Positions 15,900 through 34,343 are shown, numbered from the stretch's first letter. The stretch: DNA of 64,000 bases from an uncultured Myxococcales bacterium (GCA_903936705.1 CAIZWN010000044.1:62001-126000), one strand, 5' to 3'. A program made the numbers and translations. The notes: generated by a model from the sequence alone, not told the origin.

Positions 15900-15900
15900 T

Positions 15901-16956: not shown

Positions 16957-16972
16957 TTGCGGAGGATTCCTT

Positions 16973-18280
16973 ATGAATGCCGACGAACTGAGGACGAAGA
17001 TCCTCGAGTTGGTCACCGACTACACGCGGGAGCGCTGGCCAACCCTGCCGTTCAGGCCAGGAAAGGATCTGATACCGACCTCAGGCAAGGTGTTTGACGA
17101 GGATGAAGTATCGAACCTTGTCGATTCCAGCCTGGACTTCTGGCTGACTACCGGGCGGTTCGCCGAGGAGTTTGAAACCTCGTTTGCCAGGACGATGGGC
17201 GTCCAGTCGGCGATGCTTACCAACTCGGGATCCAGTGCGAACCTGCTGGCCGTGTCTGCGCTGACGTCGCATCTTCTGGGAGATCGTCGTCTGGTTCCGG
17301 GTGACGAAGTATTAACGGTCGCCGCAGCCTTTGCCACAACGGTAAACCCTATCCTTCAGAACGGTCTGGTTCCGGTATTCGTGGATATCGTGCTGCCTAC
17401 CTACAACGTTGATGTGTCGCGGCTGGAGGCGGCAATCTCGCCTCGAACCAAGGCTATCATTCTTGCTCACATGCTGGGCAACCCGTTCGACCTGGACGCC
17501 GTAATGGACATCGCGCGAAGGCATCGCCTATGGGTGATCGAGGACGTGTGCGACGGTGTGGGCGGGGGGTACAAGGGGCGGCGGCTTGGATCTTTCGGGG
17601 ACATGGGTACGGCCTCGTTCTATCCGGCGCACCAGATCACGATGGGGGAGGGCGGGGCGGTAGTGTGCGACGACCCGATCCTGAAGCGAGCGATTCAGTC
17701 CTTTCGCGACTGGGGACGGGACTGCTGGTGCCAGCCGGGTCACGACAACACCTGCGGCCGACGGTTCGGTTGGAAGCTGGGTGAACTGCCGGAGGGTTAC
17801 GACCACAAGTACACTTTCGGGCATATCGGATACAACCTCAAAGTCACCGATATGCAGGCGGCGATTGGCGTCGCCCAGTTGAAGAAGCTGGGTCGATTCG
17901 TGACGGCACGTGCCAGGAATTTCCGGGCTCTTCATGAAGGGTTGCTGGACCTTTCCGACGTGCTGATCCTGCCCGAGGCGACGCTTGGTTCGCAGCCGTC
18001 CTGGTTCGGATTCCCGATTGCCGTACGCGAGGACGCCCCAATCACCCGCGACCAACTGGTCCAGCGGCTTGAGGACGCGCGCATCGCCACCCGGCAACTA
18101 TTCTGCGGGAACCTGCTGCGCCAACCTGCGTATAAGAACATCGAACATCGTGTGTCCGGCAACCTTGCGAACACCGACTTCGCCATGCGCAATGTCTTCT
18201 GGATCGGCGTCTACCCAGGGATCGACGAGGCGAGAACGGACTACATGATCAAGACGATCAAGCAGATTTTCCACCCGTAG
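16973..18280 (+). CDS. rfbH: RfbH/E1-type CDP-4-keto-6-deoxyglucose-3-dehydrase (PMP and 2Fe-2S)
   Basis: 435 residues of the DegT/StrS aminotransferase fold. The usual PLP-binding lysine is replaced by histidine in [12 protein letters not shown], the hallmark of the E1 dehydrase. The cysteines fit C-X57-C-X-C-X7-C exactly (EDVC, then CWC and NTC), the known 2Fe-2S ligand pattern of Yersinia E1. The enzyme removes the C3 hydroxyl of CDP-4-keto-6-deoxyglucose on the way to 3,6-dideoxyhexoses or branched sugars. Its partner reductase E3 and the CDP-glucose genes are not in this window. The 3' end overlaps the convergent GtrB-like gene by 23 bases. Confidence 0.94.
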
Positions 18281-19217
18281 ATTCGTCAGGAAAGTTGACC
18301 CGCTCGCGTTCGACGACCCGTGGTCGCTTCAACACCTGCGTGTGGATCGCCCCGATATACTCGCCAAGAACGCCGATGAACATCAACTGCACGGACGAGA
18401 AGAAGAACAGGCCGATTACGATGGGCGCCATACCCAACTGGAACGAATCCCACATAAAGAGCTTGTAGACGAAGTAGCCGACCGCAACAGCCAGACTCAG
18501 GAACGCAAGAAGGAACCCTGCCATCGTGGCCAGGCGCAGCGGCACCTTGGTGTGGTTGGTGATCCCCAGCATCGCCATGTCGAAAAGCGTGTAGAAGCCG
18601 TTCTTGGTCTTCCCGCGCTTTCGAACAGGCTGGTGGTAGAAAACCTCGGCGCGCTGGTAGCCCAGGTCGCAGATGAGCCCCCTGAAATAGGGGTATGGGT
18701 CATCAATCAGCCGCAACTGCATGATCACCTGCTGATCATACAGGCCAAACCCGGTGAAATTCCTGACCAGCTCAATGTCGGAAAGTCGCGTGATTACCGA
18801 ATAGTATGCCTTGCGCAGCGCAAAGACCAACGACGGTTCCTCGCTGCCGGACTTGATTCCAACGACGACCTTGTAGCCTTCCTCCCACTTTGCCAGGAAC
18901 ATCGGAATCATCTCGGGAGGGTCCTGGAGGTCCGATGTCAGAGACAGGACAGCCTCACCCCGGGCCTGAAGCAGGCCGTGAAAAGGAGAACGGATGTGCC
19001 CGAAGTTGCGCTGGTTGACGATGACGCGAACACGTGAATCGCTCGCGGCGATCCCCCGCAGGATATCGACGGTACCATCGCTGGAATGGTTGTCGATGAA
19101 GATGTGCTCGTATGCGTATTGAGGCAGACCGGTAAAAACCTCGCGAACCCGGTCGATCAACTCGCGAACGTTCTCTTCCTCGTTGAAACAGGCCGACACC
19201 ACCGAAATCATCTTCAT
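18258..19217 (-). CDS. GtrB/DPM1-like polyprenyl-phosphate glycosyltransferase (GT2)
   Basis: 319 residues. The GT2 domain has [12 protein letters not shown], the metal-binding [10 protein letters not shown] and NFTGFGLYD, all typical of enzymes that move a sugar from an NDP donor to undecaprenyl phosphate on the inner face of the membrane. The C-terminus has two hydrophobic helices, as in GtrB and ArnC. The lipid-linked sugar would then be flipped and used by a GT-C enzyme; the large membrane protein at 26690-28309 is a candidate user. The gene overlaps the flippase-like gene upstream by four bases (ATGA) and the convergent rfbH at its 3' end. Confidence 0.9.
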
Positions 19218-20497
19218 GATTCTTTAGCCTCCAAGCCTCTGACTCGCCGACGATGTCTGTAGATCAAGGCTGTGACGGGAACCCCGGCAACCACCATAAG
19301 AAGGTTGGACACGGCAACATCCATCATGGTCCCGTATCGCGCCGTCAGCCAGACTATCGCCAGTACCAGCAGGCCTCCAACCAGGCTTGGGATGAGCATC
19401 GGTTCACGACCCTCTGCCCGAAGGAAGACGGCGATACAGCCAACGATGTGATGGACGACGGCGCAGGAAAGAATCACCGCGGTCATCGCGGGGGCAGTCA
19501 ACCGTTCCGCAAACACCATCCCCTGTTCCCGGGCAAACCACAGCAGCAGAATCAGAGCGGTCGTCCCGATTGCGGATAAAACGGTCGAGCGCAGAAGAAT
19601 CACCGGGAATTCAGCATCAAGCTCACGAAACCTGCGACCGACCAGCATCGATGTATAGCGCGCCGTCTGACTCATCGGCCACGCCAGCGTGATCGAGATC
19701 AGAAGATTCATCATCGCGATAGCCAGGCCGAACTGACCAGCCAGCACCGGTCCCTTTTCGTACATGATCAGCGGTGAAAATGCCCGAAAGATCAGGAATC
19801 CCGACAGCCAACTCAGCCCGATCTTCCATTGAAATGGCCAACTCTCCTTCATCCATTGATCGGTCTTGAACCGGGTGGTGTCCGTGGAAAATCGCAGCGG
19901 ATCACCAAGCCGAAGCCATGCCGCTGATGCCAGGCCCCGCGTGACGGCAAGAACGGCCAGGCTCCACAAGCCGGCTCCAAAATACAAGGCAACCAGACAC
20001 GCTGATGCGCCCAGCAACTCGGCCACCAGGCGCAGTCGCCACATCGGGGTCACGTTCCCGCCGCCCTCCCGAAGGGACATCCCAGGAAGGCTCCACTGCG
20101 AGACAAGAATTCCCAGCAGATAAGCTACCCAAGGGGCAGGCCAGGAAATCGGGGCCGACGAGGACTCCAAAGCGGCACCGGAAAACACAAACCAGCCGAG
20201 CCCGGCAACTACGACCGCTGTTACTGCCGACAACAGCACGTTGAACCTGTTAACAAATCGACCAAGTCCTGGAAGATCGTGTGTTCGTCCCGCCCCAACC
20301 ATGCGGCCGGCCGTCACCAGTGTGGCGTAGGAAAGGCCGAAATCCGAGATCTGCAACAAGCCACCAAGACTTAGGAACGAGAAAAAGAAGCCCTGCTCCC
20401 CAGGCGTCAGACGCAGCGTGGCCAACCAGGCGACAGCAAACATGCCGATGCCGGCACCAGCCGTGCTTGACATCGCCAGGATGGCGCGCACCTTCAT
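19214..20497 (-). CDS. Wzx-like polysaccharide/oligosaccharide flippase
   Basis: About 427 residues with roughly twelve hydrophobic segments and few charged loops, the pattern of the MOP-superfamily flippases that move lipid-linked O-units across the inner membrane. Characteristic stretches are GEQGFFFSFLSLGGLLQISDFGL near the start and paired helices throughout; sequence motifs are poorly conserved in this family. I chose the ATG at 20497, which has GGGGGAG upstream and opens with the first helix, over a start at 20587 that adds 30 unlike residues. It overlaps the GtrB-like gene by four bases, so the two form an operon. The substrate is not predictable. Confidence 0.82.
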   Translation of the reverse strand: MKVRAILAMSSTAGAGIGMFAVAWLATLRLTPGEQGFFFSFLSLGGLLQISDFGLSYATLVTAGRMVGAGRTHDLPGLGRFVNRFNVLLSAVTAVVVAGLGWFVFSGAALESSSAPISWPAPWVAYLLGILVSQWSLPGMSLREGGGNVTPMWRLRLVAELLGASACLVALYFGAGLWSLAVLAVTRGLASAAWLRLGDPLRFSTDTTRFKTDQWMKESWPFQWKIGLSWLSGFLIFRAFSPLIMYEKGPVLAGQFGLAIAMMNLLISITLAWPMSQTARYTSMLVGRRFRELDAEFPVILLRSTVLSAIGTTALILLLWFAREQGMVFAERLTAPAMTAVILSCAVVHHIVGCIAVFLRAEGREPMLIPSLVGGLLVLAIVWLTARYGTMMDVAVSNLLMVVAGVPVTALIYRHRRRVRGLEAKES

Positions 20498-20670
20498 CGT
20501 CAGCCAGCTCCCCCGGTTGCCTTGTCGATGTGCCGGGCAGATGCTCCGCACACCTGTCAAAATCCGGTTTGAAAAGTACGACCGCACCCAGTATCCGGGC
20601 CGATTCCTGTTCCGTCAAGCGCATCGGCAAAGCTTCCTAACCCTCGCCGCGACTGCTAGAGTACGACGCA

Positions 20671-21696
20671 ATGAAGTCGTCAACCGACAGTTTTGTCCTG
20701 ACCATCGCGATTCCAACCTTCGATCGCAACCAGCACCTTGAGCGCTGTGTCGGCATTCTTCTGCCCCAGCTACGGCCCGGGGTGCAACTGGTGATCTGCG
20801 ACAATGCGTCGCCCAACCCAGTCTCGGAATCTCTTGCAGCGCTGCTGGCATCTGGAGCCGATGGACGTGTTCAGGTAATACGCAACCGCTGCAACATCGG
20901 CGGCAACGCCAACATTTTGCGCTGCCTGGAGGAATGTCAAACCGAGTGGGTCTGGGTGCTGGGCGATGATGACGAACCCCTGCCCAACGCGGTAGATCAG
21001 ATTCTTCAGGACATTGAGACCGCCGACGAATCGCTTGTCAGCGTCAACTACAAGTGCGAGTTGTTTGACCGCGAGAGGGCCCTGGATCTGGAGGGAACCG
21101 AAGCCTTTCTGCGAGATATGGATTCGCTGTCCAATGTGCTGTTCCTGTCAACCAGCATCTTTCGCGCGCCGGCTCTGGTGCAGCACCTGCGACTTGCCTA
21201 CTCGTATTCCTATTCGTTGATGCCACACGTGATCGCGCTTGCGTTCGCCCTGGGGAATCATGGCAAAGTCACTCTGGCAATGAACCGGATCGTTTCGTGG
21301 CACCAGGGGGAATTCGGCCAGATGTGGTCGGTCGTGAATGCGGCACTGGCTTTTCCAACCCTGCTGGACGTGCCTCCCTTGCACCGCTATCGCCAGGTTC
21401 TTGCCAGGAAGATGGAACAGGACGTGCATCCCGAGATTCTGGGATTGGCAAGGCAACTTCTGATGCTGGCTTGTCACGAAGGCGATTTTGCCGGGGCCCG
21501 CTGGACCTGGGGACAAATCTATTACCGGCGTTTCGCAGGCACTTCATGGTCATTTCGAAGGGTGGTGGCCAGATGCCTCACCCTTCTGTTCGTATTCCCG
21601 CGCCTGTCCCACCTGGTCGTGGAACGGCTGGCGCGACTGGTCCTGGGCAGGCGGGCAACCGTCAACACCATCCAGGATCGCGTTACACGAATATGA
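20671..21696 (+). CDS. Family 2 glycosyltransferase
   Basis: 341 residues, cytoplasmic or peripheral. The GT-A nucleotide-binding half opens with LTIAIPTFDRNQHLERC, then VICDNASP, NIGGNANILRC and the metal-binding triad in VLGDDDEPLP. The C-terminal part has basic and hydrophobic helices that probably touch the membrane. Donor and acceptor cannot be told from sequence. It is divergent from the flippase gene (intergenic 174 bases) and convergent with the HAD protein gene, and lies inside the glycan region. Confidence 0.88.
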   Translation: MKSSTDSFVLTIAIPTFDRNQHLERCVGILLPQLRPGVQLVICDNASPNPVSESLAALLASGADGRVQVIRNRCNIGGNANILRCLEECQTEWVWVLGDDDEPLPNAVDQILQDIETADESLVSVNYKCELFDRERALDLEGTEAFLRDMDSLSNVLFLSTSIFRAPALVQHLRLAYSYSYSLMPHVIALAFALGNHGKVTLAMNRIVSWHQGEFGQMWSVVNAALAFPTLLDVPPLHRYRQVLARKMEQDVHPEILGLARQLLMLACHEGDFAGARWTWGQIYYRRFAGTSWSFRRVVARCLTLLFVFPRLSHLVVERLARLVLGRRATVNTIQDRVTRI

Positions 21697-21735
21697 TCTC
21701 GCTTTAGATCCGGCATGCAGCCACCAGGTCCGTCG

Positions 21736-23598
21736 TCACGACGCCAGCCTTCTGGCCAGGCGGATCAATCCGGTCTTGAACACGATCCAATCGCAACACA
21801 GCCAGAACACTCCACCGGGAAGGCCGGCAGTACGAACGGCCCAGGCCCCTTTCCATGGACAAGCAAAGCCCTTGATCCACGCGATCGGATGCCGCCATGC
21901 GGCCACATGCTGCCGCCCCCACAGCCGGACGCTGTAGTCGGAATGGGACTCCTCGCAAGTTAGCCTTTCGGCCAGAACCATCGCGTCCTTCCCGGGAAAA
22001 TGTGAAAGCCGGAACAGCCGACTGTCCGACATGCGCTTCAATCTGTCCTGGAACACAAGATTGTTCGCCGGGCTGTGCCTGACGGCTCCGGCAATCAGTC
22101 GCAGCGAAAGAAGGATCCCCTGCCGAACAGCAAGAAGCTCCTCGGGATCGTCTTGTTCTGGTGAAGGTTCCTTGCAGATTGATTCCAGCAGGCCATACAG
22201 GTCCCAGGCCGATTTTTCCGCCAGCGATTCCCTTGATTCCTGGTCGGCGACAAGTCCAACATCGCCCAGGCGCAGGTTTTCCTTGCCTCGCTCGGACCAC
22301 CTTGCAAAGAAGGCCCAGCGCGTCCGGATCGCCGGAACGGCGGCATCGAACATCCTCCCGATGCTTCCCCGCCAGCCGATGTCAACGAACATGAAATCGG
22401 GACCCAGCGCCAGAAGCTCGGCAGCAAGGGACTCACGGGTTTCGCCGGCTATTTTGGCGAGGACAGGGAAGCGAACACCAGCAACCTCGGATTCGAACTC
22501 CAACAGCGAATAGTCATCTGGCGAACAGCCTGGAAACAGATTGGAAAACTCGACTCCCAGCCACGCTGCCGCCTGAACTGGACCCATTGCAGCGGCCTTG
22601 ACCTCCCTTGCGTCGCCCAGGGCCGAAACGGCATCCGCTGGGGTCATGATGCTTGCAAGTCGAGCTCGGCAGCGAGGAATCAGTGAGTAACCAAAGGTGT
22701 CATCCCGGTCGAACACCTCCCGCGACCATGCCTCGGCGCACATCTTCAGAAACCAGCCGTCCCTTGCAACGAAAACAAACCTACCGCTTGGCTGGTCCGA
22801 TGGAAGCAACGCAAACAACTTCAGACAGAACAGCGCAAACACCGGGCCCAGTTCCGAAAAACCCAATCGAAATGCGCGGCTGCATCGATCCTGACCAGGT
22901 TCAGTTTCGGCCGCTGGAACCACCCTCGCGCTGATTCCTTCGGCTGCCGCTGAAAATCCATCCGCCAACCGATCGTCCCCGATGTGCAGCAACTGGCATC
23001 CCGCGAAATCCTTGGACAGACGATGCAATCCGCCCCTGAACTTCCCGCGAGCATGATCACAGGACGAATGGATCGAGGAAGCCGGAAAACGATCGATGCC
23101 TGATTTCCCCAGGAGGGCAGCCAGATCACCGGCACCGAACCGGGAATCCGAACATAAGGACACTTTCTTCCCGGCGGCCAACGCCTGTTCAACGATGGTC
23201 ATGGCCGCCGTATTCGAAGATGTGGTGGCGGCCAAAGCCTCCAGTTCAACGGCGTGAATGGCGTTGGCGAATTCAGGCGCCAGCCCGACCAGCGAACAAT
23301 ATCGTTCCCATATTGCAAGCGATGAACACTCCGGATCGCCGTCAACGGCCCGCCTGGAGTCGGCAACGGCCGCGTCGAAAGCACTCCCTGGCTGAACAAG
23401 TGATCCCAGGATGCCAGCGATCGCCCGCTGTTCCCAGTCGGGATCAAGTCGCGCAAGAACGGTGCCGAAGCAGTCGAACGAAATGTGACCAAATCCTGTG
23501 GTATCAACAGACTTCCAATCGGATTTCGAGGCCCGACCCGAGAGCGCCCCCCCGACCAATCTGGCTGCGGTTTGCAACTTGTGCAGAAAGGAATCCAC
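21736..23598 (-). CDS. Large HAD-superfamily protein of glycan clusters (COG5610-like)
   Basis: 620 residues. The N-terminal HAD domain has the nucleophile motif SFDCFGTVL, a Ser in LCSDSRFG, a lysine region ARGKFRGG, and the acidic motif HIGDDRLAD. All the catalytic positions of an active HAD hydrolase are therefore present. The C-terminal ~370 residues contain FVFVARDGWFLK and resemble the long HAD proteins common in LPS and capsule clusters; their role is not established. It is the last gene of the minus-strand run that begins near 34343, 51 bases after the TPP enzyme, and is convergent with the GT2 gene. Confidence 0.75.
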   Translation of the reverse strand: MDSFLHKLQTAARLVGGALSGRASKSDWKSVDTTGFGHISFDCFGTVLARLDPDWEQRAIAGILGSLVQPGSAFDAAVADSRRAVDGDPECSSLAIWERYCSLVGLAPEFANAIHAVELEALAATTSSNTAAMTIVEQALAAGKKVSLCSDSRFGAGDLAALLGKSGIDRFPASSIHSSCDHARGKFRGGLHRLSKDFAGCQLLHIGDDRLADGFSAAAEGISARVVPAAETEPGQDRCSRAFRLGFSELGPVFALFCLKLFALLPSDQPSGRFVFVARDGWFLKMCAEAWSREVFDRDDTFGYSLIPRCRARLASIMTPADAVSALGDAREVKAAAMGPVQAAAWLGVEFSNLFPGCSPDDYSLLEFESEVAGVRFPVLAKIAGETRESLAAELLALGPDFMFVDIGWRGSIGRMFDAAVPAIRTRWAFFARWSERGKENLRLGDVGLVADQESRESLAEKSAWDLYGLLESICKEPSPEQDDPEELLAVRQGILLSLRLIAGAVRHSPANNLVFQDRLKRMSDSRLFRLSHFPGKDAMVLAERLTCEESHSDYSVRLWGRQHVAAWRHPIAWIKGFACPWKGAWAVRTAGLPGGVFWLCCDWIVFKTGLIRLARRLAS

Positions 23599-23649
23599 TT
23601 TTTGATAGCCTCATGCCAGCCTGGACAATCGGTCGCCCCAATACGGTAA

Positions 23650-25452
23650 TCAGGGTCGCGATACGGTGTTCAGCGCCATTTCTGCGGAATCCAGGAATGG
23701 CCACATGTCATCAAGCGCTCTCGATACCATCCGGCCGTCCGGAAGGCGTTCCGATGCCACCTTGGGCGCAAACTGGCAATCGGGGTCCACCCGCACCACA
23801 CAGAACGTCGGACCAGGCAGTTCAAGGACATCGCGAACGGTACACTCGACCTGTTCAGGACTTTCAATCACGAAGGATTGCAGCCCGAATGCCTCGGCCA
23901 GCCTGGCAAAGTCGGGAAAGCCGACGCCCGATTCGCATCCGCACCCGACATACGGCAACCCGAAATGATTCTTCTGCGACTGTCTGATCGAGGCATAACC
24001 GCCGTTGTCCAACAGGAAGATCTTGACCGGAAGGCGATGTTCGGCCAGCGTCGCCAGTTCCTGAACATTCATCATCAGGCTGCCGTCACCCGCAAGGCAG
24101 ACTACCCGCTGTCCGGTGCCAATCGCAGCTCCAATCGAGGCCGGAAGATCGTAGCCCATCGATGCGCATCCGCTGTTGCAGATCATTCGCGCCCCGCCAC
24201 GAACAACTCCGGCCTGGAACAGAGCGATGCTGGCGGTGCCGTTTGCCGACACCAGCGTGTCGCCGGTATCCATCAAGCTGGTCAGGTGCTGGACAAACCG
24301 GTATGGGTCTATCCGATTCGATCTGACCGGATGATCCCCAAGAACCGGATATCGCACCAGTCGCTCCTGGCACCATGCCAGCCACGCATTCCATTGCTCG
24401 CGCATCGGCGGGGAGCCTGCTGGAAGAAGCCGACTGAATGCCCCAAGGAAGAAGCCTGCATCGGCATGGATCGCGATGTCGGGCCGCAACGTTGGCTTGT
24501 CCAGTTCGGCCCTGTCGATATCCACGACGACCTTCCTGGCGTTGGGCGCGAACATTGCCCATGAATATCCAATCTGCCTGATGTTGTTGCGGGTGCCGAC
24601 GAACAGGATCAGGTCGGCCGACTGCAGTGCAAAGTTTCCAGCACGGGTGCCGATCGTGCCTATACGACCTATCCAGCGAGGCTCGTCCGACGGCACCAGA
24701 TCAAATCCGTTGAACGTGGTAACCACCGGAATATCAAGTGACGCCACGAGTTTCAGGAACTGCTGCCCAGCGCCAGCAAGCCGGATCCCGTGACCTGCTA
24801 CCAGTAGGGGCCGTCGCGAAACCTCAAGGGCTCGGACAGCCGATTCGACACCACGCAGTGCCTCGGCCTGATCGAACACAGGATCGGTCGCCGGGTCGAT
24901 CAACGTCGATGCCGGTGGCAACAAGACAGGAGCCCCTTGAACGTTCATCGGAACGTCCAGCCATACCGGCCCGGGGCGCCCCGAGGTCGCGGCTGCCAAG
25001 GCCTTGTCGACAAGCCCCAGCGCATCGGCCGGGTCCAGGATTGTCGCCGCAAACTTCGTAAGGGGCCGAACCAGGGACAGGATATCAACCTCCTGATCGC
25101 CCAGTTGCCGCAATGGGACCTGGCGACAGGAGGCGACGGTGGTCTCGTACTTGACCTGTCCGGAAATGTAGACGACAGGTACCGAATCGGTCCACTGCCC
25201 AAGAAGACCAGTCAAGGTGTTCGTGCCACCCGGTCCGGTTGTCACGTTTACGGCTACCGGACGTCCGGTAGACCTGACGTAGCCTTCGGCAGCCATCGCA
25301 CACGCCTGTTCGTGGTGGAAGAAGAAACACCGAAGGCCGTGGTGCTTGCCGAACGCATCGTTCAAGTGCATTGCGCCGCCGCCGGTGATCATGAACACGT
25401 GCCTGATTCCCAGTTCAAACAAGCGATCGGCTATGACGTCGGCAACGCGCAT
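23650..25452 (-). CDS. Thiamine diphosphate-dependent enzyme, acetolactate-synthase-like
   Basis: 600 residues in the three-domain TPP fold. The N-terminal domain has the catalytic glutamate in HHEQACAMAAEGY and a TTGPGGTNTLTG motif. The middle domain has LLVAGHGIRLAG. The C-terminal cofactor domain has GDGSLMMNVQEL and a following Asp-Asn-Gly-Gly, matching GDG-X~26-N. Homologues in polysaccharide clusters are generic TPP enzymes; one characterised example, YerE, adds a two-carbon unit from pyruvate to a CDP-keto-deoxy sugar formed by an RfbH-type enzyme. With RfbH at 16973 this role is possible but unproven. It lies 36 bases after the NeuB-like gene and 51 before the HAD gene. Confidence 0.85.
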   Translation of the reverse strand: MRVADVIADRLFELGIRHVFMITGGGAMHLNDAFGKHHGLRCFFFHHEQACAMAAEGYVRSTGRPVAVNVTTGPGGTNTLTGLLGQWTDSVPVVYISGQVKYETTVASCRQVPLRQLGDQEVDILSLVRPLTKFAATILDPADALGLVDKALAAATSGRPGPVWLDVPMNVQGAPVLLPPASTLIDPATDPVFDQAEALRGVESAVRALEVSRRPLLVAGHGIRLAGAGQQFLKLVASLDIPVVTTFNGFDLVPSDEPRWIGRIGTIGTRAGNFALQSADLILFVGTRNNIRQIGYSWAMFAPNARKVVVDIDRAELDKPTLRPDIAIHADAGFFLGAFSRLLPAGSPPMREQWNAWLAWCQERLVRYPVLGDHPVRSNRIDPYRFVQHLTSLMDTGDTLVSANGTASIALFQAGVVRGGARMICNSGCASMGYDLPASIGAAIGTGQRVVCLAGDGSLMMNVQELATLAEHRLPVKIFLLDNGGYASIRQSQKNHFGLPYVGCGCESGVGFPDFARLAEAFGLQSFVIESPEQVECTVRDVLELPGPTFCVVRVDPDCQFAPKVASERLPDGRMVSRALDDMWPFLDSAEMALNTVSRP

Positions 25453-25487
25453 CGTGGCAAATCTCCGCAGGAAGCACTTTCAGCGCG

Positions 25488-26567
25488 TCAAAGCCCACGA
25501 CCGTAAATCCGGGCCTTCAGCGATTCCACCTTTGCATACGGAACGTCGAGGATATCGATCATGATGGGTTCGTCCTGCTTGACAGGCGTCAGCAGCACCT
25601 CGCCCCGCAGCAATTCCCGACAGGAAATCTGCCCCCGCTGCAACGGTATCGCCAGGTACACGTCGTCGTCACTGAGAGCATGTCCTGCAGGCAAGTCGCG
25701 TTTGGCATAGACACCTCGGACCAGGCGGTCCAGGTAATCGGTCTCGAGTGGCGAAATCGACCGCCTTTGATCGGGCGAACCTCCGCACATCTCGCGAACC
25801 TTCTGCCATGCCTTGAACCACTCATCGATCTGGTGAGGCTGCGAGCAGTATGGCGAAACCGGGTGCTGCCCGTCATCGATATCGATGTGACGCTCGAACG
25901 TCCTGGCGCCCTTGGCGTAGGCGATCAATATCGACGACGTCCAGTCGTTGTGCTCGTGTGTCGACAAACCGATCACGAGATCCGGGTATCGTTCCTTCAG
26001 AAAGTCGATCTGGGAAAGTTCCAATTGCCAGTCCTCGGTCGGGTACATCGCAACACAGTGATTGATGGCCAAGGGGATGTTCCGGTTTCCGAAGAACTTG
26101 ACCAGGTCGTCAATGTCCTTCAGGGAGGATCCCCCTGTCGACACAATCACTGGCTTGCGCGTCTTTGCAATCTTTTCGATCAGTATCCAGTCGTTGATAT
26201 CCGACGACGCAACCTTGATGATTTCGATCCCAAGATTGACGCACAGATCGACCGAGCGCTCGTCGAAAGGCGTGGCCATAGGGATGCATCCGGCCTGACG
26301 GATACCGTTCACCAGAAGAACGAAATCCTCGTCTGACATCCGTGTCGCAACAGTCTTCTGGATGTACCGAATGTCGGTACGGTCACGAAAATCCTTGTGG
26401 ATGAAGCTCTGGACGTCCCTGAACTGCAACTTGATGGCAGCCCTGACATTGTTGAAACGGACGATGGTCGCGAACTCGTTAACGATTCGCAGACCGCGCT
26501 GGACCATGCCCCAGTGGTTGTTCGCCAGTTCCAGAACGAACAGGTCATCGAATATCTTGGCCTTCAT
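25488..26567 (-). CDS. NeuB-like nonulosonate (sialic acid type) synthase
   Basis: About 359 residues. The barrel starts with LELANNHWG and contains CIPMATPFDE, KVASSDIND, KPVIVSTGG, GLSTHEHND and FERHIDID, the active-site landmarks of PEP-condensing NeuB enzymes. A C-terminal SAF (antifreeze-like) domain follows (YAKRDLPAGHALSDDDV). It would condense PEP with an N-acyl hexosamine to form a nine-carbon acid; the exact substrate is open. The ATG at 26567 has GGGGG seven bases upstream. A GTG at 26693 overlapping the GT-C stop is in frame but adds 42 non-conserved residues. No NeuA or NeuC gene is present in the window. A sialidase is encoded 11 kb away. Confidence 0.88.
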   Translation of the reverse strand: MKAKIFDDLFVLELANNHWGMVQRGLRIVNEFATIVRFNNVRAAIKLQFRDVQSFIHKDFRDRTDIRYIQKTVATRMSDEDFVLLVNGIRQAGCIPMATPFDERSVDLCVNLGIEIIKVASSDINDWILIEKIAKTRKPVIVSTGGSSLKDIDDLVKFFGNRNIPLAINHCVAMYPTEDWQLELSQIDFLKERYPDLVIGLSTHEHNDWTSSILIAYAKGARTFERHIDIDDGQHPVSPYCSQPHQIDEWFKAWQKVREMCGGSPDQRRSISPLETDYLDRLVRGVYAKRDLPAGHALSDDDVYLAIPLQRGQISCRELLRGEVLLTPVKQDEPIMIDILDVPYAKVESLKARIYGRGL

Positions 26568-26689
26568 CGCCATACCCCCAGAAGCTCGGGAACACGCGGC
26601 ATTATTGCAGGGACATGCCGCGGGCTCAACATCGGACTCGACTCGGCCATGTCGGTGAACAAAAGATTTCCTGCTGAATGATTGGGGTG

Positions 26690-28309
26690 TCACCCGGAAG
26701 CGCTGCCGTTCAGAACGAACCTGGTCGCACGCAGCTCGTAGCCCTGATGCTGGTAGACCCGCTGTTCGACCTCAAGGTACCGCGTCCGAAGAATCTGCAA
26801 TTCCAACTGGTTATCAGGGTGATTCGGAAGTTCCAGATACCAGAGTTCGGAAGGCGCCTTGGAATCGGCAATCAGCGCCATGACGCGAAGATAGGTTGGA
26901 TTGACCACGTCGGAAGTGCACGCGGTCCTGCGATAGGTGCCGCGCTCCAATGGTCCCAGGGAAAACCAGTTGGCGTCGCGGTGCGTCACTATCGTGGTAC
27001 CAGTGTCGGGCCGAACATCCTGTAGGAAAGAATCCTGAAGGCGACCCAACTGCATGAATTCCAGGTTATAGACAAGCTGGTCGCGCCCGTAGCCGGCGTA
27101 TTCCTCGGTCACAGAGGTCATGTCCAGCAACTGGTGACGACCGAACGAAAAGGTTCCGAAGATCGCCCTTGATACCGGATCGGCAGTGACGAAGACCGAC
27201 GCCAGAAGCAATGTTGACAGAATCGCAAGGAATCCGCGCCTGACACCTGGAAGCCGAGGCAGCAGTTCGCGCAACGATGCACTGGCCAAAAGAAGCAACA
27301 ATGGGAACAGCGGCAGAAAGTAGCGCACGTTCACGAACGTGCGAAAGCGGGTCAGCACGAACAAAGCCCCCAGGAACACGAACGCGATGAAGGCCACGTC
27401 AAGACGCAGCGCAGGGTCGGTCCCGGGTCGAGCATCCGAAGCAGCCGATGTCGCGGCCGGTTTCCATGGACGACAGAAAACGACCCACGCAACCGGCAAG
27501 ATCGACAGCATCCACTGGAACTGCAGCACGAAGACCAGCAGCAGGTTGGCCAGCAACAGACGATCCAGATCCAGCCTCAGCAGCGATCCGACAAGGCCCA
27601 CCGCGTCCTGATTCGACCACAACAGCGCATGACTTGGGGTGGAGGCACGCATCGCCAGATAGCCACCAAAAACCAGTAACGGAATTCCCAGCGGCAGCAG
27701 TCGCGCAAGCCGAGCCAGGCGTTCCGCAGGTGTGCCCGGCGACAACAGAAGGGAAACAAGCGCGTGGCCCGAAACGGACAGACCGAAGAGCACGACACCT
27801 GACTCCTTGGAAAGCACCAATCCGGCACCTGCCAGCGCCGCCAGAAAATAGCGGCGCCGAAGAAGGGCCAGAAGAAAGGGGACAAAGAAGACAAGAACGC
27901 CAAAATCGGCGTTCAAATTCGCCATGCAGGCGTGGAAAGCCGGGTTGACGGCCATGGGAAGAACCAGCAACCACGACTCGGCAATGCCTGCCGTCGGAAA
28001 CAGATGCCGCACTACGCGAAAATAGGCCAGCAGGACAAGGCCTCCCAGCAGGAGGTTTGCAAGGCCCAGCATCATCAGATTGCATGAATCGGCCAGCAGC
28101 GACAGGCCCAGCGGGATGAAGTAGGCCATCGAAGGATGGCCGAAAAGGTTGAACGCCATCGGATTGAATGGGCCTGACAGGGCCTGCTGCAGATGGACAA
28201 GATACTGGCGCCCGTCCCACATCGGGACCTCGCCAATGTAGAACGAGGCAATCACCACATAAACAAGGAACACTACGGCGGGTGCCACAAACCGTGCCGC
28301 CGACTTCAT
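26690..28309 (-). CDS. Polytopic membrane protein, probable GT-C glycosyltransferase
   Basis: 539 residues with about ten or eleven hydrophobic helices followed by a ~100-residue C-terminal soluble region. After the first helix comes an acidic loop motif MWDGRQY, and a second in NLNADFGVLVFF, the loop acidic residues expected in GT-C enzymes that use a polyprenyl-phosphate sugar on the periplasmic face. The helix arrangement resembles GT39/GT83-type enzymes, but the family cannot be fixed by eye. It starts three bases after the nitrogenase-like gene, so the two appear cotranscribed. The GtrB-like enzyme could supply its donor; that link is inference. Confidence 0.7.
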   Translation of the reverse strand: MKSAARFVAPAVVFLVYVVIASFYIGEVPMWDGRQYLVHLQQALSGPFNPMAFNLFGHPSMAYFIPLGLSLLADSCNLMMLGLANLLLGGLVLLAYFRVVRHLFPTAGIAESWLLVLPMAVNPAFHACMANLNADFGVLVFFVPFLLALLRRRYFLAALAGAGLVLSKESGVVLFGLSVSGHALVSLLLSPGTPAERLARLARLLPLGIPLLVFGGYLAMRASTPSHALLWSNQDAVGLVGSLLRLDLDRLLLANLLLVFVLQFQWMLSILPVAWVVFCRPWKPAATSAASDARPGTDPALRLDVAFIAFVFLGALFVLTRFRTFVNVRYFLPLFPLLLLLASASLRELLPRLPGVRRGFLAILSTLLLASVFVTADPVSRAIFGTFSFGRHQLLDMTSVTEEYAGYGRDQLVYNLEFMQLGRLQDSFLQDVRPDTGTTIVTHRDANWFSLGPLERGTYRRTACTSDVVNPTYLRVMALIADSKAPSELWYLELPNHPDNQLELQILRTRYLEVEQRVYQHQGYELRATRFVLNGSASG

Positions 28310-28312
28310 GCG

Positions 28313-29569
28313 CTATGTCCCCATCGCCTCGAGAATTCGCGTCGCCGTCGCAAGGACGCCTTCAAAGCCGATGAATGGAGACGGTGACAACGGCTGCCAG
28401 CCACGGCAGGGCATCCCGAACTCGACCCCTGTTACGCCGCATCTGCGGGCACACTGGACTTCGTTAGTGGTACCGATCACCAGGTCGATCGCACGGTCGG
28501 ACACCGCCTGACGCAACCTGGATTCGACCGCGTTCAGTCCGGGCGCATCCAGTACTTCGACACCTTCCGCGGCGGCGCCAACCGCAGCAGTGCGGCCGTC
28601 CAGCGCACCGGCGAGTACAGGCACCATTCGCAAATCACGACACAGGCCCAGCAGGCCCCCAAGGCGAGGACCGTCCGAAAAAACAGCCACGGGTCGTCCG
28701 ACCAGTGGTTCTGCGGCCTGGCGCAGGACACTGCGCACCCTGGCCTCCTCGCGGTCTGCAAGGCCAACGGCTCCATCCATGCACCCGAATGCATCCCCAA
28801 GACGCACCAGAAACTCCCTTGTTGCCGCGATCCCGATCGGCCACGGAACGTCAATCCTGACATGTCCCAGACGTCTCACCAGCACGTCGGACGCAGCTTC
28901 GCCACCCGGCAGGGTAACGGCTGCACCGGCGCGAGGCAGGTCGGCCAGGCGCCCCGACATCCCGCCTCCCAGCAGAGCCGTGTTCAACACAAGGCCAAGT
29001 TCAGCCATGTACGACGTCAGCAGATCAATGTTTGCAACATGTTCGTAGAACGGACGATCAAACAGGTAGCCGACCAGATTTACGCGTTTGTCCATGCCAG
29101 AAATCGCCGGCGTACCAGGCAAGGCAAACCGCTCTGCCAAAGCAGCCAGTGCTCGTCCATAGCCCTCAAAAAGATCCCCTGAAAAGTCTGGGGCGTAGAC
29201 GTAGACAGACGGAATGCCAAGGAGTTTCTCGAGATCCTGGCCAAGCCGATCGCGATCAATGCCGGCAATCTCGACAAACGATGCCGATGTGACGACAAGC
29301 ATCCGGGCCTTGACCCGCCGGACTATGTCCTGCGCCAACCTAGCCAGGACCTGTCCAGGGTCCAGCACCAGGTCGGCTTCGGTGATCTTGGTACACACGA
29401 CTCGCCGATGAACCTCTCCCGATGGATTATGGAACCTCATCAGTGAGTGCAGTTTGATGTCGCAACCTGCGCCTCCGTGCAGTATCACCACGGCATCAGG
29501 GATCGCCAGGCCGGCGATGCAGGCGCCAATGCTGGCGGTAGCCTGGTACGTCTTCGGCTCGAACGTCAC
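28313..29569 (-). CDS. Nitrogenase component 1-like protein (stand-alone subunit)
   Basis: 418 residues of the NifD/NifK/BchN/CfbD superfamily. Visible landmarks are GACIAGLAIPDAVVILHGGAGC, CTKITEADLVLD, which matches the CT-x-x-x-E-x-D-I-V motif, and a C-terminal FGMPCRGWQPLSP with SPFIGFEG. Cysteines at 17 and 36 fit the first two cluster-ligand positions. Where the third is expected the sequence is VVTSASFVE, with no Cys, while Cys59 lies in the CTKIT motif. It overlaps the fusion gene upstream by four bases (ATGA), strongly suggesting the two products form a heteromer. It is not NifD or NifK proper: it is shorter and the gene sits among glycan genes. No NifH-like reductase gene is linked. 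Function unknown. Confidence 0.8.
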   Translation of the reverse strand: MTFEPKTYQATASIGACIAGLAIPDAVVILHGGAGCDIKLHSLMRFHNPSGEVHRRVVCTKITEADLVLDPGQVLARLAQDIVRRVKARMLVVTSASFVEIAGIDRDRLGQDLEKLLGIPSVYVYAPDFSGDLFEGYGRALAALAERFALPGTPAISGMDKRVNLVGYLFDRPFYEHVANIDLLTSYMAELGLVLNTALLGGGMSGRLADLPRAGAAVTLPGGEAASDVLVRRLGHVRIDVPWPIGIAATREFLVRLGDAFGCMDGAVGLADREEARVRSVLRQAAEPLVGRPVAVFSDGPRLGGLLGLCRDLRMVPVLAGALDGRTAAVGAAAEGVEVLDAPGLNAVESRLRQAVSDRAIDLVIGTTNEVQCARRCGVTGVEFGMPCRGWQPLSPSPFIGFEGVLATATRILEAMGT

Positions 29570-32259
29570 GCCATCACCCCTTCAAGCGCCATGAGGGTTC
29601 GTTCGATTCCGGAAAACCCCGGTTCGAACCGCATGAAATGAAAGTAGGTCACGCCAGCGGCGTCAATGAAATGTTTCTGGCACGACTCGTTTGTTGCAAG
29701 GTCGAAATTCCCTGAGCGCAGTATCGATTCAAGCCCCTCCGGCCTGCGGTGCAGGTACACCTCCGGGCTGGCGCCCAGGAAGGTCGCCAATGCACGAACT
29801 CGGTTGAGCTGCTGTGTTGATTCCTCGGTTAGCGCCACAAGAACCGGTTTCAGCCCCAGTTCCAGAAGGAAAGGAACATACCCGACGCCCAGATGAACCG
29901 TCGTCATCGAGCCAGTCCCCTTACGGTTATTGCCGAAGGACACAGCTACGCGACGCCCCTGGTGACGCGCCTTGAACGCCGAAATCCGCTCGTTCAGCCG
30001 CCGTAACCTGGGCTCCAGCAACAGTGCCATTTCTGTCTCTCGTCCCATCCTTCGCCCGATTTCCAGGAAGAAGGAATGGACCGATCCGACAGCAAATGGC
30101 GTTGCCTGGTCAACAACCTCAGCCGAGGTCAGCGAACCTACAGCCTCAAGAAACGAGCTGAAGACGACCCTCTCGGGAGCCATTACCAATCGGGACGAGG
30201 CAATGCTGGACAAGGCTTCAAGGCCACCGGAGGGCCAGAAAGCGCCAACCGATATCCCGGCTTCGGACAGAATTGCCTGGACTTCCTGCTCGAAACGCCC
30301 CGCGTCGTCAGGATACCCGACGAACGATACCTGGTTCGCCGGCTGACCCGCCGACCGCAGAAAACGGGAAGCCAACGCCCCATGAACACGGCGAGCAACC
30401 TCTATGGGTCGCAATGGACGCAATCCATTGGCCTGTATCGCGACTACAGGAACGCCAAGATCCTGTTCCAGTTCAGTGGCAACCTGTTCAAGATCGTCGC
30501 CAATCATCTCGGACAGGCAGGTTCCAACAATGACAAGCGCGCGCGAGGACGGGCGAATGTCAATCGCCCCACGTGCCGCTTCGTGCAACCGGCGCTCGCC
30601 CCCGTCAATCACGTCCATCTCTCGCATATCGCTCGAGAATATGTTTCCTGACGACTGCTCAAATGCAGGAAGACAACCGCGGTCCCCATGCACCAGAATC
30701 GCAAATTCGGCCGGCAACTCCTGAAGAACATCCAGCGCACCCATCATCCCGCAAGCGGTGTCCCCGAAAGCATCCTCCAGTGGCATGTCATCCGGTAGCG
30801 CAGCCGAATCGTCAACAGCAGGTAACGCGATGGCAGGCGATGGCGCCGACTGAGGGGTAGGCTGTGCAGACAGTCGATCCCAGGCGGCCTCAATTTCCTC
30901 GAACTTCGTGTTCATTCGGGTGCGAGCAAGCCTGGCGATGACCTTCAGAGCAGGCGCCTCGACAGTCCCGGCGCCGTGCGACAGGTTCAGGTGTACCGTT
31001 CGAAGATAGGATGGGCGCGAGTCGTCACGAGGCGATATCTCGAGGATAGTCGTGCGGCCCCCGGAATCAAGCATCGTCAGCGACAATTTTCCGGCAGCGC
31101 TGCCGGCGGAAATCCCATGGATTCCAGCGCGCGCCAGCATCTCCAGCGGCGAATCAAGAAGCCATGCCAGAAGGCTGGTGGCAACAGTTTCCGGCGGGAG
31201 ACTGGCTGACACTGACGCCGGTTTCGGCGCGCTGTCCATTGGCAGTGACTTTACAGGCAGGAATTCATCCCAGCCGAAACGCTCGATGTATGTAACCTGC
31301 ACGCCGCTGCACACGGGTTCCAGCTTGCATTCCCGGCACGCAGGGCGCTTTGCGTAGTAGGGATCTGGCGACCCGACGACATTCGTCTGGCCTCGATCCC
31401 TGACAAACCTGTGATCCGGCACATCCACCGACGGAACCGGGCCACCGTCAGCCGAACGGGACAGCACCACGCAACCTGGAACCTCGCACAGCCGCAACGA
31501 AACCGGGGCGCCAAGGGAACGCCACGCGTGCAGCCAGGCATCCATCAGATCGCCGTATCCAAGTTCAAGATCGTCGCGGGTGGCCAAGGCACTGCCCAGC
31601 GGCTTCATTGCGGAACAGCAAATCCCGTCGCCAAGCTTCGGGGACGCATGCGCCAGGAAGAACTGGTAGATCTCGGCAATACGGGCCACGTTCCGGCGAG
31701 TCATGACAACCAGGAATTCCAGCCGAAAGCCACTGGCGGGACGGATCCGCGCCAGCTTCTTCAGGCCCTCTACAACCTCGTCAAAGGCACCAGGGCGCTG
31801 GACAATTGCGTCGTGATCTTCTGCACGATCTCCATGAATCGACAGCACTATCCTGCCCATTCCGGCATTCAGCAGGTCTTCAAGCAGACTGCCACGGTGC
31901 AGCAAACGACCGTTCGTGTTCATCGATACAAGTTCGAATCCCATGTCGCGAGCCATCCGGACCGCTGCAACAAGATGGCGGCCCATCGTCGGCTCGGCGA
32001 TGGTGAACGCAGCCTCCCGCAACCCCAGACCATAGCCTTCCTCGAGGTTCGCCCGGATCTCGTCGAGAGTCGGGGGATGAACCGGAACTCCTGGAATGCG
32101 TCCGTCAATGCGCCCGTTCAGGCAGAACACGCAGGAATTGTTGCAGGCATCGCTGACAGCCAAGTGCAGTGCTCGACGCTTTGACTGGGGCACGGACTGC
32201 CCGGACTCGGCCCGGCCTGCCGGGGATGGATTCGAAGCGGCCACCTGTTCAACCTCCAC
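29566..32259 (-). CDS. Fusion of a radical SAM enzyme with a nitrogenase component 1-like domain
   Basis: 897 residues. Residues ~28-250 form a radical SAM domain with C39-N-N-S-C43-V-F-C46 (CX3CX2C). A SPASM-like cysteine group CRECKLEPVC follows near residue 310. Residues ~340-480 are a linker region I cannot assign. From ~495 to the end is a nitrogenase component 1-like domain with Cys503, Cys529 in HGDRGC, and Cys581 in VGTCLSEMIGDDL. The first two are separated by 25 residues, as are NifD Cys62 and Cys88, and the third motif matches the TC-x-x-E-x-IGDD pattern. This is the more canonical cluster-binding partner of the downstream subunit. I know no named enzyme with this architecture; the reaction is unknown. 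Confidence 0.85.
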   Translation of the reverse strand: MEVEQVAASNPSPAGRAESGQSVPQSKRRALHLAVSDACNNSCVFCLNGRIDGRIPGVPVHPPTLDEIRANLEEGYGLGLREAAFTIAEPTMGRHLVAAVRMARDMGFELVSMNTNGRLLHRGSLLEDLLNAGMGRIVLSIHGDRAEDHDAIVQRPGAFDEVVEGLKKLARIRPASGFRLEFLVVMTRRNVARIAEIYQFFLAHASPKLGDGICCSAMKPLGSALATRDDLELGYGDLMDAWLHAWRSLGAPVSLRLCEVPGCVVLSRSADGGPVPSVDVPDHRFVRDRGQTNVVGSPDPYYAKRPACRECKLEPVCSGVQVTYIERFGWDEFLPVKSLPMDSAPKPASVSASLPPETVATSLLAWLLDSPLEMLARAGIHGISAGSAAGKLSLTMLDSGGRTTILEISPRDDSRPSYLRTVHLNLSHGAGTVEAPALKVIARLARTRMNTKFEEIEAAWDRLSAQPTPQSAPSPAIALPAVDDSAALPDDMPLEDAFGDTACGMMGALDVLQELPAEFAILVHGDRGCLPAFEQSSGNIFSSDMREMDVIDGGERRLHEAARGAIDIRPSSRALVIVGTCLSEMIGDDLEQVATELEQDLGVPVVAIQANGLRPLRPIEVARRVHGALASRFLRSAGQPANQVSFVGYPDDAGRFEQEVQAILSEAGISVGAFWPSGGLEALSSIASSRLVMAPERVVFSSFLEAVGSLTSAEVVDQATPFAVGSVHSFFLEIGRRMGRETEMALLLEPRLRRLNERISAFKARHQGRRVAVSFGNNRKGTGSMTTVHLGVGYVPFLLELGLKPVLVALTEESTQQLNRVRALATFLGASPEVYLHRRPEGLESILRSGNFDLATNESCQKHFIDAAGVTYFHFMRFEPGFSGIERTLMALEGVMA

Positions 32260-32282
32260 GTTCCAACAGATCGGACACCTGG

Positions 32283-34343
32283 CTACAGCGGCCTGAAGTC
32301 ACGTGTTTCAAGGTGCTGCCTGAGTATCGCTTCCATGGCGGCGATATCGTATCGCAGTACGTTCGGCAGGTCAGCAGCCCGCTGACGCACGTCCCTCTGG
32401 AAAGTCGTAACCGCGTTTTGCAGGGAAGCCTCGTCGGTAAAGACGCTCTCGTCACCGTCATTGCGTTCCACAGCCAGGAATCTGAAAGCCGCTCCCAGGC
32501 CGCTGGCCAGATCGACGAAATCGGCAGCCTCGTGGATGTTCGAACGCATCACGACGAACGACAGAACAATGCGCGGTCGGTGCCGCCACCCCCTGGAGCG
32601 TTCCAGCAACAGACGAACATTCGATAGCACCTTTTCGAATCCGCCGGCATTGCCGGTTATTCGCTCGAAGGTCTCGCTGGTAGTGGCATTGATCGAGACT
32701 ATCAACGTATGGAAACGGGCACGAGACATGTCAGACAGGATCGAATCGCCCAGAAGGATGCCGTTCGTCGTCATCGACAACTGCAGGTCCGGGAAACGAT
32801 CGCTGTCGCACTCACGCACCAGTTCGGCAAAACGTGATGACATCAACGGCTCGGCGCCAGCCAGCGACAGATCGCGCAACGTGGGCAGAAGGTCCTTCAC
32901 CGAATCGAACACCACGTCAGGAATCTCTTCCAGGGAACGGTAGTTGCGATGAATCTCGCACATCGTGCAATGGTGGTTGCACCTCAAAGACGGAGCAATC
33001 ACCAAACAGGTTGGGCGTGATCGAAGGAAGTCGGCCCGTTCCAGGGTTTCCTGCATCTGTAGAATCAGGTTGTCGTGGAAAGCTCGACCGATCGGCAAGG
33101 CGCTGGGAACTGCCGAGGAATGGGCCCCACCGCGAAACACCGGGCAGATGTCACGACATACATCATCACCCTTGCCGGCAGCAATGGACCGACGGATCTG
33201 GCGAAGGCCATCCGAGTTCCAAACATCCAGCAGTGGCTGACGCAGCCAGTTTCCAGTCGAGAAACGGACTTCTTCCGTCAGCAGGCTTCCCTTGCAAGGA
33301 GCCACGCCGCCCGACGGATCCTGCGCGCCAAGGACACTCCATGGGCTGGTACAGAAAAGGGCAGGTGCGCGACCAAGCCGCTCGACCATGTCGTCCAGCG
33401 TCAGGCGCCTGATATGAAACTCCACGGCACTTGGCCCAGGAATTGAACCGGCAGGTCCGTCCGGCGTCAACGAAGGGATTTTGGTGATAGGCAGCACCGA
33501 ACCCAGCTTGGAATCAGGAGCGAAATGGGGCAGGGCGGGAGGACAAGCGCCCGCGAGGATGCACTGATTACAAACTGGGAAGGGTCCTGGCTTGGTTTGA
33601 TGATGCAACGGGGCCAGGATCGCTGGATACAGATCGGGGGCCACAACCTCGGTCGATAACAGGCATGGCGGGGGTGACGGCGGCGTAAGTCGCAGGGGCA
33701 CATGCGCCTCCAGAGCCCACGCCTGGATGGCACTGATCCTGGCGGCTGCCAGCCTGAAATCCCATGGCAGCGGTCTGGTCCTGTCAGCCTCGCCACAGAA
33801 CGCCAAGTGAATTCCTGCCAACCTGCCAGCCCTAGCCAGCACCCTCGTGGCAGTATCCAACAACCCTGGCAGTGTCGAAGGCACCACCGGAATGTCGATC
33901 TCCAGATCCAGTCCGCGCAGTTTGACGAGATCAATCAGGCGGGCCAAGCGAGTCAGGGTACCGGTGCCCCTGGTCAACCTGGCTATCGATTCCTTGTCGG
34001 CGGCTGGGACGCAGAGTCTAATCCCGGTCATGCCGGCATCTGCCAGAATATCGAAAGCATCAGTGTCAGTGAATCCGGCATGACCGTAGACCAGAACCTC
34101 TCCGGAAGACTCGTGGCGCAACCGGCGGATCAGCGGCGCCAGATCAGCCCGTAGAACGTCTCCGGCCATGATCAGAACACGTCTGGCCTGCGGGATTCGG
34201 AAGTCGGGCGACAGCACGGATGGCACAGGAAGACCCGTCCGCCCTTGCTCATGTCGGCAGAACACGCAAGACTGCGAGCACCCGGCGGCCAGCCGCAAAA
34301 CGGCTTCATCGCTGGGAATCGGAAAGCCGACAGAATCCGGCAA
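32283..34343 (-). CDS. Tandem radical SAM protein with internal SPASM-type region
   Basis: 686 residues. Module 1 has C22-S-Q-S-C26-V-F-C29 (CX3CX2C) and a divergent barrel, then an auxiliary cysteine group CNQCILAGAC near 260. A SPASM-like stretch follows (CTSPWSVL, then GGVAPC, GNWLRQPLLDVWNS and CRDIC). Module 2 has C455-N-H-H-C459-T-M-C462 and a more standard barrel to the end. SPASM normally follows its radical SAM domain; here it precedes module 2, so it may serve module 1. The start is TTG at 34343 with GGGGGGA just upstream; the CX3CX2C near residue 22 leaves no room for a later start. It is first in the operon, 23 bases before the radical SAM-nitrogenase fusion gene. Confidence 0.85.
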   Translation of the reverse strand: MPDSVGFPIPSDEAVLRLAAGCSQSCVFCRHEQGRTGLPVPSVLSPDFRIPQARRVLIMAGDVLRADLAPLIRRLRHESSGEVLVYGHAGFTDTDAFDILADAGMTGIRLCVPAADKESIARLTRGTGTLTRLARLIDLVKLRGLDLEIDIPVVPSTLPGLLDTATRVLARAGRLAGIHLAFCGEADRTRPLPWDFRLAAARISAIQAWALEAHVPLRLTPPSPPPCLLSTEVVAPDLYPAILAPLHHQTKPGPFPVCNQCILAGACPPALPHFAPDSKLGSVLPITKIPSLTPDGPAGSIPGPSAVEFHIRRLTLDDMVERLGRAPALFCTSPWSVLGAQDPSGGVAPCKGSLLTEEVRFSTGNWLRQPLLDVWNSDGLRQIRRSIAAGKGDDVCRDICPVFRGGAHSSAVPSALPIGRAFHDNLILQMQETLERADFLRSRPTCLVIAPSLRCNHHCTMCEIHRNYRSLEEIPDVVFDSVKDLLPTLRDLSLAGAEPLMSSRFAELVRECDSDRFPDLQLSMTTNGILLGDSILSDMSRARFHTLIVSINATTSETFERITGNAGGFEKVLSNVRLLLERSRGWRHRPRIVLSFVVMRSNIHEAADFVDLASGLGAAFRFLAVERNDGDESVFTDEASLQNAVTTFQRDVRQRAADLPNVLRYDIAAMEAILRQHLETRDFRPL

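Follow-up and report, generated by a model that had tools for sequence, protein, structure and literature searches.

A radical SAM protein fused to a nitrogenase-like subunit in an uncultured Myxococcales bacterium, a candidate biosynthetic reductase

What does a nitrogenase-like protein do when a radical SAM enzyme is built into the same polypeptide? The question is raised by an operon in the window, the whole 64,000-nucleotide stretch analysed here, which comes from an uncultured Myxococcales bacterium whose genome is designated G000. A preliminary description had placed three minus-strand genes at 28313-34343 (-), and they were found there. These genes, the domains of the middle one and the genes that follow are listed below.

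32283..34343, minus strand: tandem radical SAM protein, 686 aa; start TTG or later; two CX3CX2C motifs with a SPASM region between them
29566..32259, minus strand: 897-aa fusion of a radical SAM/SPASM part, a mid domain and a D-like nitrogenase component 1 part
31225..32184, minus strand: radical SAM/SPASM part of the fusion, residues 26-345; cluster Cys39, 43 and 46; auxiliary-cluster Cys263, 308, 311 and 317
30871..31206, minus strand: mid domain of the fusion, residues 352-463; new, and found also on other D subunits and radical SAM proteins
29569..30819, minus strand: nitrogenase component 1-like part of the fusion, residues 481-897; Cys503, 529 and 581 correspond to NifD Cys62, 88 and 154; type-specific Cys860-x-Lys862-His863
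28313..29569, minus strand: 418-aa nitrogenase component 1-like K subunit; Cys36 corresponds to NifK Cys95; type-specific Cys59 and Cys388
26690..28309, minus strand: predicted multi-pass membrane protein, GT-C glycosyltransferase-like, no Pfam match; probable operon member
25488..26693, minus strand: NeuB-family synthase, N-terminus probably over-extended; possible operon member
23650..25452, minus strand: thiamine pyrophosphate-dependent enzyme of the surface-sugar locus; possible operon member

The 23-base spacer described between the genes for the 686-aa and 897-aa proteins was confirmed. The gene overlap has the described length of 4 bases and reads GTGA instead of ATGA. The single promoter proposed for the operon was not substantiated, as the promoter-like site at 34396-34368 lies at chance level (4 found versus 3.5 expected).

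The membrane-protein gene starts 3 bases past the 418-aa gene; a transcript of more than three genes is therefore possible, and the operon probably extends beyond the third. From its sequence the membrane protein appears to resemble GT-C enzymes; its gene is not kept beside the fusion in other genomes. Same-strand genes run from the fusion operon on to 21736, and positions 14754-28309 form a deoxysugar or surface-polysaccharide locus with C-methyltransferase, epimerase, DegT/DnrJ aminotransferase family, NeuB-family, thiamine-diphosphate enzyme, GT2 and flippase-like genes. Because the operon runs into the glycosyltransferase-like, NeuB-family and thiamine-diphosphate genes of this locus, it might modify a surface polysaccharide or a sugar precursor, and sugar genes were also seen, by eye, near some related pairs (L043, L083, L093). 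This is improbable, given that the corresponding gene pairs in two other genomes (G007 and G021) have no such neighbours and that most related clusters have unrelated flanks.

Pfam identified Radical_SAM (PF04055) in residues 35-200 of the 897-aa protein (66 bits, cut-off 29.5; motif CNNSCVFC) and Oxidored_nitro (PF00148) in its residues 503-870 (107 bits, cut-off 28.6); the 418-aa protein scored 173 bits with the latter model. These scores place both proteins in the nitrogenase component 1 superfamily and the 897-aa protein in the radical SAM superfamily as well. They bear out the earlier observation that the middle gene joins a CX3CX2C radical SAM domain and a SPASM-like region to a component 1-like domain, with no stop or frameshift between them. 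Between the SPASM and nitrogenase parts is a separate domain of about 115 residues, designated mid, which the earlier account had missed. Of the NCBIfam radical SAM models, HxsC4 and MoaA ranked first for the fused radical SAM part. The best family match, to the HxsC/HxsC4 maturases, reached 149.9 bits, far below the cut-off of 500, and no Hxs peptide genes occur among the window genes examined. The nifB model was absent from the 25 best NCBIfam matches of the fusion. Structure prediction of the whole fusion was too poor for use (mean pLDDT 47, pTM 0.30).

Homologues and gene neighbourhoods were compared in 53 relatives, and a fusion profile search of 379 genomes of the phylum found the fusion type in three: G000, G007 and G021. 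The G007 fusion (889 aa, about 54-55% identity, aligned over residues 19-895) has the same architecture, and its K gene follows with a 4-base overlap. It is recorded in VGRB01000004.1, from a Deltaproteobacteria bacterium MAG of the K_DeepCast series, a name that occurs in a Lake Tanganyika metagenome paper (PMC8245535). The cluster and auxiliary-cluster cysteines of the radical SAM/SPASM part are kept in both G007 and G021. Rarity (3/379) and the many contigs of these metagenome-type genomes would be compatible with an assembly or gene-calling artefact, or with a decaying gene, but an uninterrupted homologue in an independent assembly, at 54% identity and with all predicted cluster cysteines kept, refutes that explanation and leaves it a negligible probability. 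G021 carries a mid-nitrogenase gene, truncated by the contig start, plus a K gene. On another contig it has a complete 547-aa radical SAM-mid protein that lacks a nitrogenase part and lies behind a tandem radical SAM gene. That these are the pieces of one split fusion was considered and rejected, because the two mid domains differ, which makes them two genes.

The 686-aa protein has CX3CX2C motifs at residues 22 and 455. Pfam detects its SPASM region (342-397) and the second Radical_SAM domain (451-608), and the first radical SAM half is visible only by its motif and by its relatives. An orthologue in G007 (49% identity over 684 aa) lies directly upstream of a NifH homologue (L082), and after these two genes comes a mid-bearing D fragment whose frame is at the contig end.

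The preliminary description had found no nif, bch, cfb or mar partner genes and had called for a search for a NifH-like ATPase elsewhere in the genome. Two NifH homologues, one of them on contig C68, and three DK pairs besides the window pair were found in the same genome. The absence thus holds for the window and not for the genome, which has four DK pairs in all. Component 1 domains occur in 32 of 52 genomes of the class. G007 shows an unusual expansion, with 28 PF00148 matches, six NifH homologues and no NifB above cut-off. With a K-profile, the clan was detected in 38 of the 379 phylum genomes, and 32 of these belong to this class.

To place the two subunits, a tree was built with IQ-TREE from 48 sequences. 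The K subunits of the class form one group (support 100/98) apart from NifK, NifN, VnfK, BchB, BchZ and MarK, the last of which falls on the Nif/Vnf K side. Among the D subunits, the fusion sequence and a set designated type B form a group (98/95), and a further set, type C, is separate (100/100). Both the group of fusion and type-B D and the K clan are apart from NifE/NifN. The tree placement suggested earlier therefore puts the window pair outside the NifDK, NifEN, VnfDK, BchNB, BchYZ and MarK references; the MarK sequence was taken from a printed PDB alignment, and MarD entered the first tree only, as a fragment. CfbD, Isr and Nfa were left out of the tree, CfbD being judged by its NCBIfam model and Isr by its published cysteine pattern. 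The CfbD equivalog TIGR03282 gave 32.8 bits versus a cut-off of 268.4. The DPOR and COR equivalogs (BchNB, BchYZ) gave about 20-43 bits, at most 43, versus cut-offs of 324-529. These sequence comparisons put the two subunits in a clan of nitrogenase-like DK pairs that has no earlier description, set apart from CfbD by model score and from Isr by cysteine pattern.

The cysteine ligands bear on the kind of cluster and substrate. The equivalents of NifD Cys62, Cys88 and Cys154 are cysteine in all three fusion-type D sequences and in nearly all type-B D. In type-C D the equivalents of Cys88 and Cys154 remain and that of Cys62 has been lost. In K of all types only the NifK Cys95 equivalent is kept, those of Cys70 and Cys153 being lost. 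With three cysteines in D and one in K versus the six P-cluster cysteines, and with no FeMo-co ligands, the pair does not have the ligand set of NifDK, VnfDK or AnfDK. It has a 3+1 cysteine site at the D/K interface like that of NifEN, a feature that is unspecific, as other nitrogenase-like enzymes have one too. The fusion-type DK is predicted to hold one [4Fe-4S] cluster, liganded by three D cysteines and one K cysteine, and no P-cluster. A single [4Fe-4S] cluster is also found in NifEN and COR. The equivalents of the FeMo-co ligands NifD Cys275 and His442 are absent in all D types (Glu and a gap in 3/3 fusion-type D). DPOR, COR and Isr, whose substrates are organic molecules, lack them as well (PMC11423573), which favours an organic substrate here. 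Very probably, the operon makes or modifies some molecule rather than fixing nitrogen.

Partners for such a reductase were assessed by gene co-occurrence. The NifH homologues of G000 (C68), G007 (C182) and G021 (C87) form a private clade (100/99) that excludes the 42 other NifH surveyed and includes the NifH next to the G007 orthologue of the tandem protein. The C68 protein has a P-loop and both cluster cysteines. A C68-type K was found in the same three fusion-bearing genomes (support 0.93, FastTree), and in G021 the private-clade NifH is the only NifH and lies near the fusion-K pair. Fusion and private NifH co-occur in 3/3 genomes versus 49 genomes with neither; the resulting probability of 4.5e-5 would hold for independent genomes, which these are not, since two share a family. 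Since the fused D and the C68 NifH are encoded in different operons, their pairing is drawn from co-occurrence in three genomes only. Another type of K gene, named for contig C6, is directly followed by a CX3CX2C gene, radical SAM by similarity, in 10 of the 10 cases with downstream room on the contig. From the co-occurrence, the synteny in G007 and these C6-type neighbours, we conclude that the partnership between these reductases and radical SAM proteins is a lasting one.

The reading we prefer, at a probability of roughly 0.55, is that the system reduces an organic substrate at the cost of ATP, receives its electrons from the C68 NifH and couples this to radical SAM chemistry on the same substrate, which mid would hold. 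The DK heteromer would consist of the 418-aa K and, as D, the C-terminal half of the fusion, and would hold one [4Fe-4S] cluster; the C68 NifH-like protein would pass electrons to it with ATP hydrolysis. Radical steps on this substrate, or elsewhere in its pathway, would fall to the fused radical SAM/SPASM part and the tandem radical SAM protein, before or after the reduction. The mid domain, present also on the partner D at C68, might keep the substrate, or a partner that both activities share, in place for radical and reductive steps in succession. The product would be an organic molecule and not ammonia.

An alternative is that the fusion and K form a NifEN-B-like scaffold, in which radical SAM chemistry would build or alter a metallocluster that DK holds and passes to the C68-type DK; NifH would then act on the two pairs alike. 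NifEN shows the same 3+1 cysteine pattern, and each of the fusion-bearing genomes carries the private NifH together with a second DK type. The preliminary description had stated that NifB is known only as a separate protein, which is not so: in clostridia, a NifB of three domains includes a NifN-like one (PMC5715403). This NifN-NifB is a direct precedent for a maturase, and a radical SAM-nitrogenase-like fusion is therefore not unprecedented. The type-specific residues point the same way. Cys860-x-Lys862-His863 of D and Cys59 and Cys388 of K are invariant in the fusion type (three sequences only), and the Cys860 position is Phe in 23-sequence type-B D in 21 cases and His in 2. Cys860, Cys59 and Cys388 could hold a second metal site, which would be needless for a plain two-electron reductase and so counts against the reductase reading. 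However, the fused radical SAM domain is not NifB: the NifB model TIGR01290 has no match in G000 or G021, and the models that rank first are others. Furthermore, the presumed recipient, type-C D, lacks the equivalents of Cys62, Cys275 and His442, and in G021 a radical SAM-mid protein stands alone. A maturase is thus a real but distinctly less probable explanation, and we favour the biosynthetic reductase. The preliminary proposal of a new reductase or maturation complex, with the radical SAM step tied to the reductase half, stands as to the new pair and the covalent tie to D; as between the two, the evidence leans toward a reductase.

The distribution of mid also bears on this choice. In G000 the D subunits encoded at C68 and C6 start with this domain, and a mid HMM, built from six copies, was extended to 63 distinct copies in the fetched loci. 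Most type-C D subunits begin with it, and it occurs on radical SAM proteins of both the tandem and the stand-alone kind (10/10 of the stand-alone ones examined were Radical_SAM by Pfam). Two further carriers are a B12-binding radical SAM protein (L143), encoded by a gene that overlaps one for an H-D fusion, and a membrane protein resembling glycosyltransferases (L091). At L092:7889-9091 it is joined to a WelO5-type halogenase within a His-Xaa-Ser peptide locus that has HxsB (567 bits, cut-off 370), HxsD and an aKG-HExxH peptide hydroxylase. No copy was found on plasmids. Sequence comparison with the PDB gave no relatives of mid beyond chance, and comparison of a model of fair quality (pLDDT 79) gave no fold match at E < 0.04, with TM-scores near 0.25. 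We infer that mid is a docking or substrate-binding module. Its presence on a halogenase, on many radical SAM proteins and on a B12 radical SAM protein speaks against a maturase, as we read mid-bearing proteins as tailoring enzymes and not cluster builders. More doubtfully, mid might recognize a carrier-bound or ribosomal peptide, which would make the fusion the first nitrogenase-like enzyme of peptide or carrier-tethered tailoring. If so, one polypeptide would perform radical SAM chemistry and ATP-driven low-potential reduction on a single tethered substrate.

To our knowledge, only a handful of nitrogenase-like enzymes have an assigned job, in the metabolism of chlorophyll, F430, methylthio-alkanes and isethionate. 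DPOR (BchLNB) and COR (BchXYZ) share with the proposed reductase a single [4Fe-4S] cluster in DK and the ATP-dependent reduction of an organic molecule; they have no radical SAM fusion, and their clades are separate from the window pair. NifEN and the clostridial NifN-NifB share a radical SAM domain joined to a component 1 subunit, the 3+1 cysteines and a second DK pair alongside, but in NifN-NifB the fused subunit is N/K-like and here it is D-like, and the tree separates them. Closest in gene content is Isr (IsrBHDK), like Mar and Nfa a member of group IV, in which a radical SAM gene (B) adjoins nitrogenase-like H, D and K. Radical SAM genes accompany the nitrogenase-like HDK genes in Mar, Nfa and Isr, where the radical SAM partner is a separate protein of unclear role (PMC11423573). 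Isr acts on an organic substrate, and IsrD, like the window D, lacks FeMo-co ligands. However, Isr has one cluster cysteine in D and three in K (PMC11423573), and the window pair has three and one. The window system thus differs from Isr, Mar and Nfa in its clan and cysteine pattern and adds the fusion, a second radical SAM protein, mid and a second DK pair. Among the open papers searched, no nitrogenase-like/radical SAM fusion beyond that of NifB was found. The natural fusion limits the possible roles of the radical SAM partner, an open question in Mar and Isr (PMC11423573), and offers a single protein for testing it. More broadly, a large clan stands apart within a single bacterial class, and its members are linked to radical SAM enzymes again and again through a shared new domain, and once by fusion.

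Several other arrangements were seen among the related loci. NifH is fused in frame to D in four genes of 876-1085 aa (L083:1774-4764, L135:5539-8796, L138:642-3272 and L143:5241-8240) from three genomes, L083 and L138 both lying in G027; a single chain there unites the reductase with one half of the catalytic component that it serves. On C6 of G000, a gene with two family III CoA-transferase domains (L012:11427-13997) lies directly upstream of a type-B DK pair, with an H-D-K cluster running in the divergent direction. In G006, an H-D-K-radical SAM cluster is accompanied at L089:4532-10874 by two CobW/HypB-type GTPases with a C-terminal CxxC, an ABC-type ATPase and a pair of radical SAM proteins, a gene set that looks like one for metal or cofactor handling. 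On a plasmid of Treponema saccharophilum, nitrogenase-like H, D and K genes lie between iron ABC transporter genes (L166:4059-7232).
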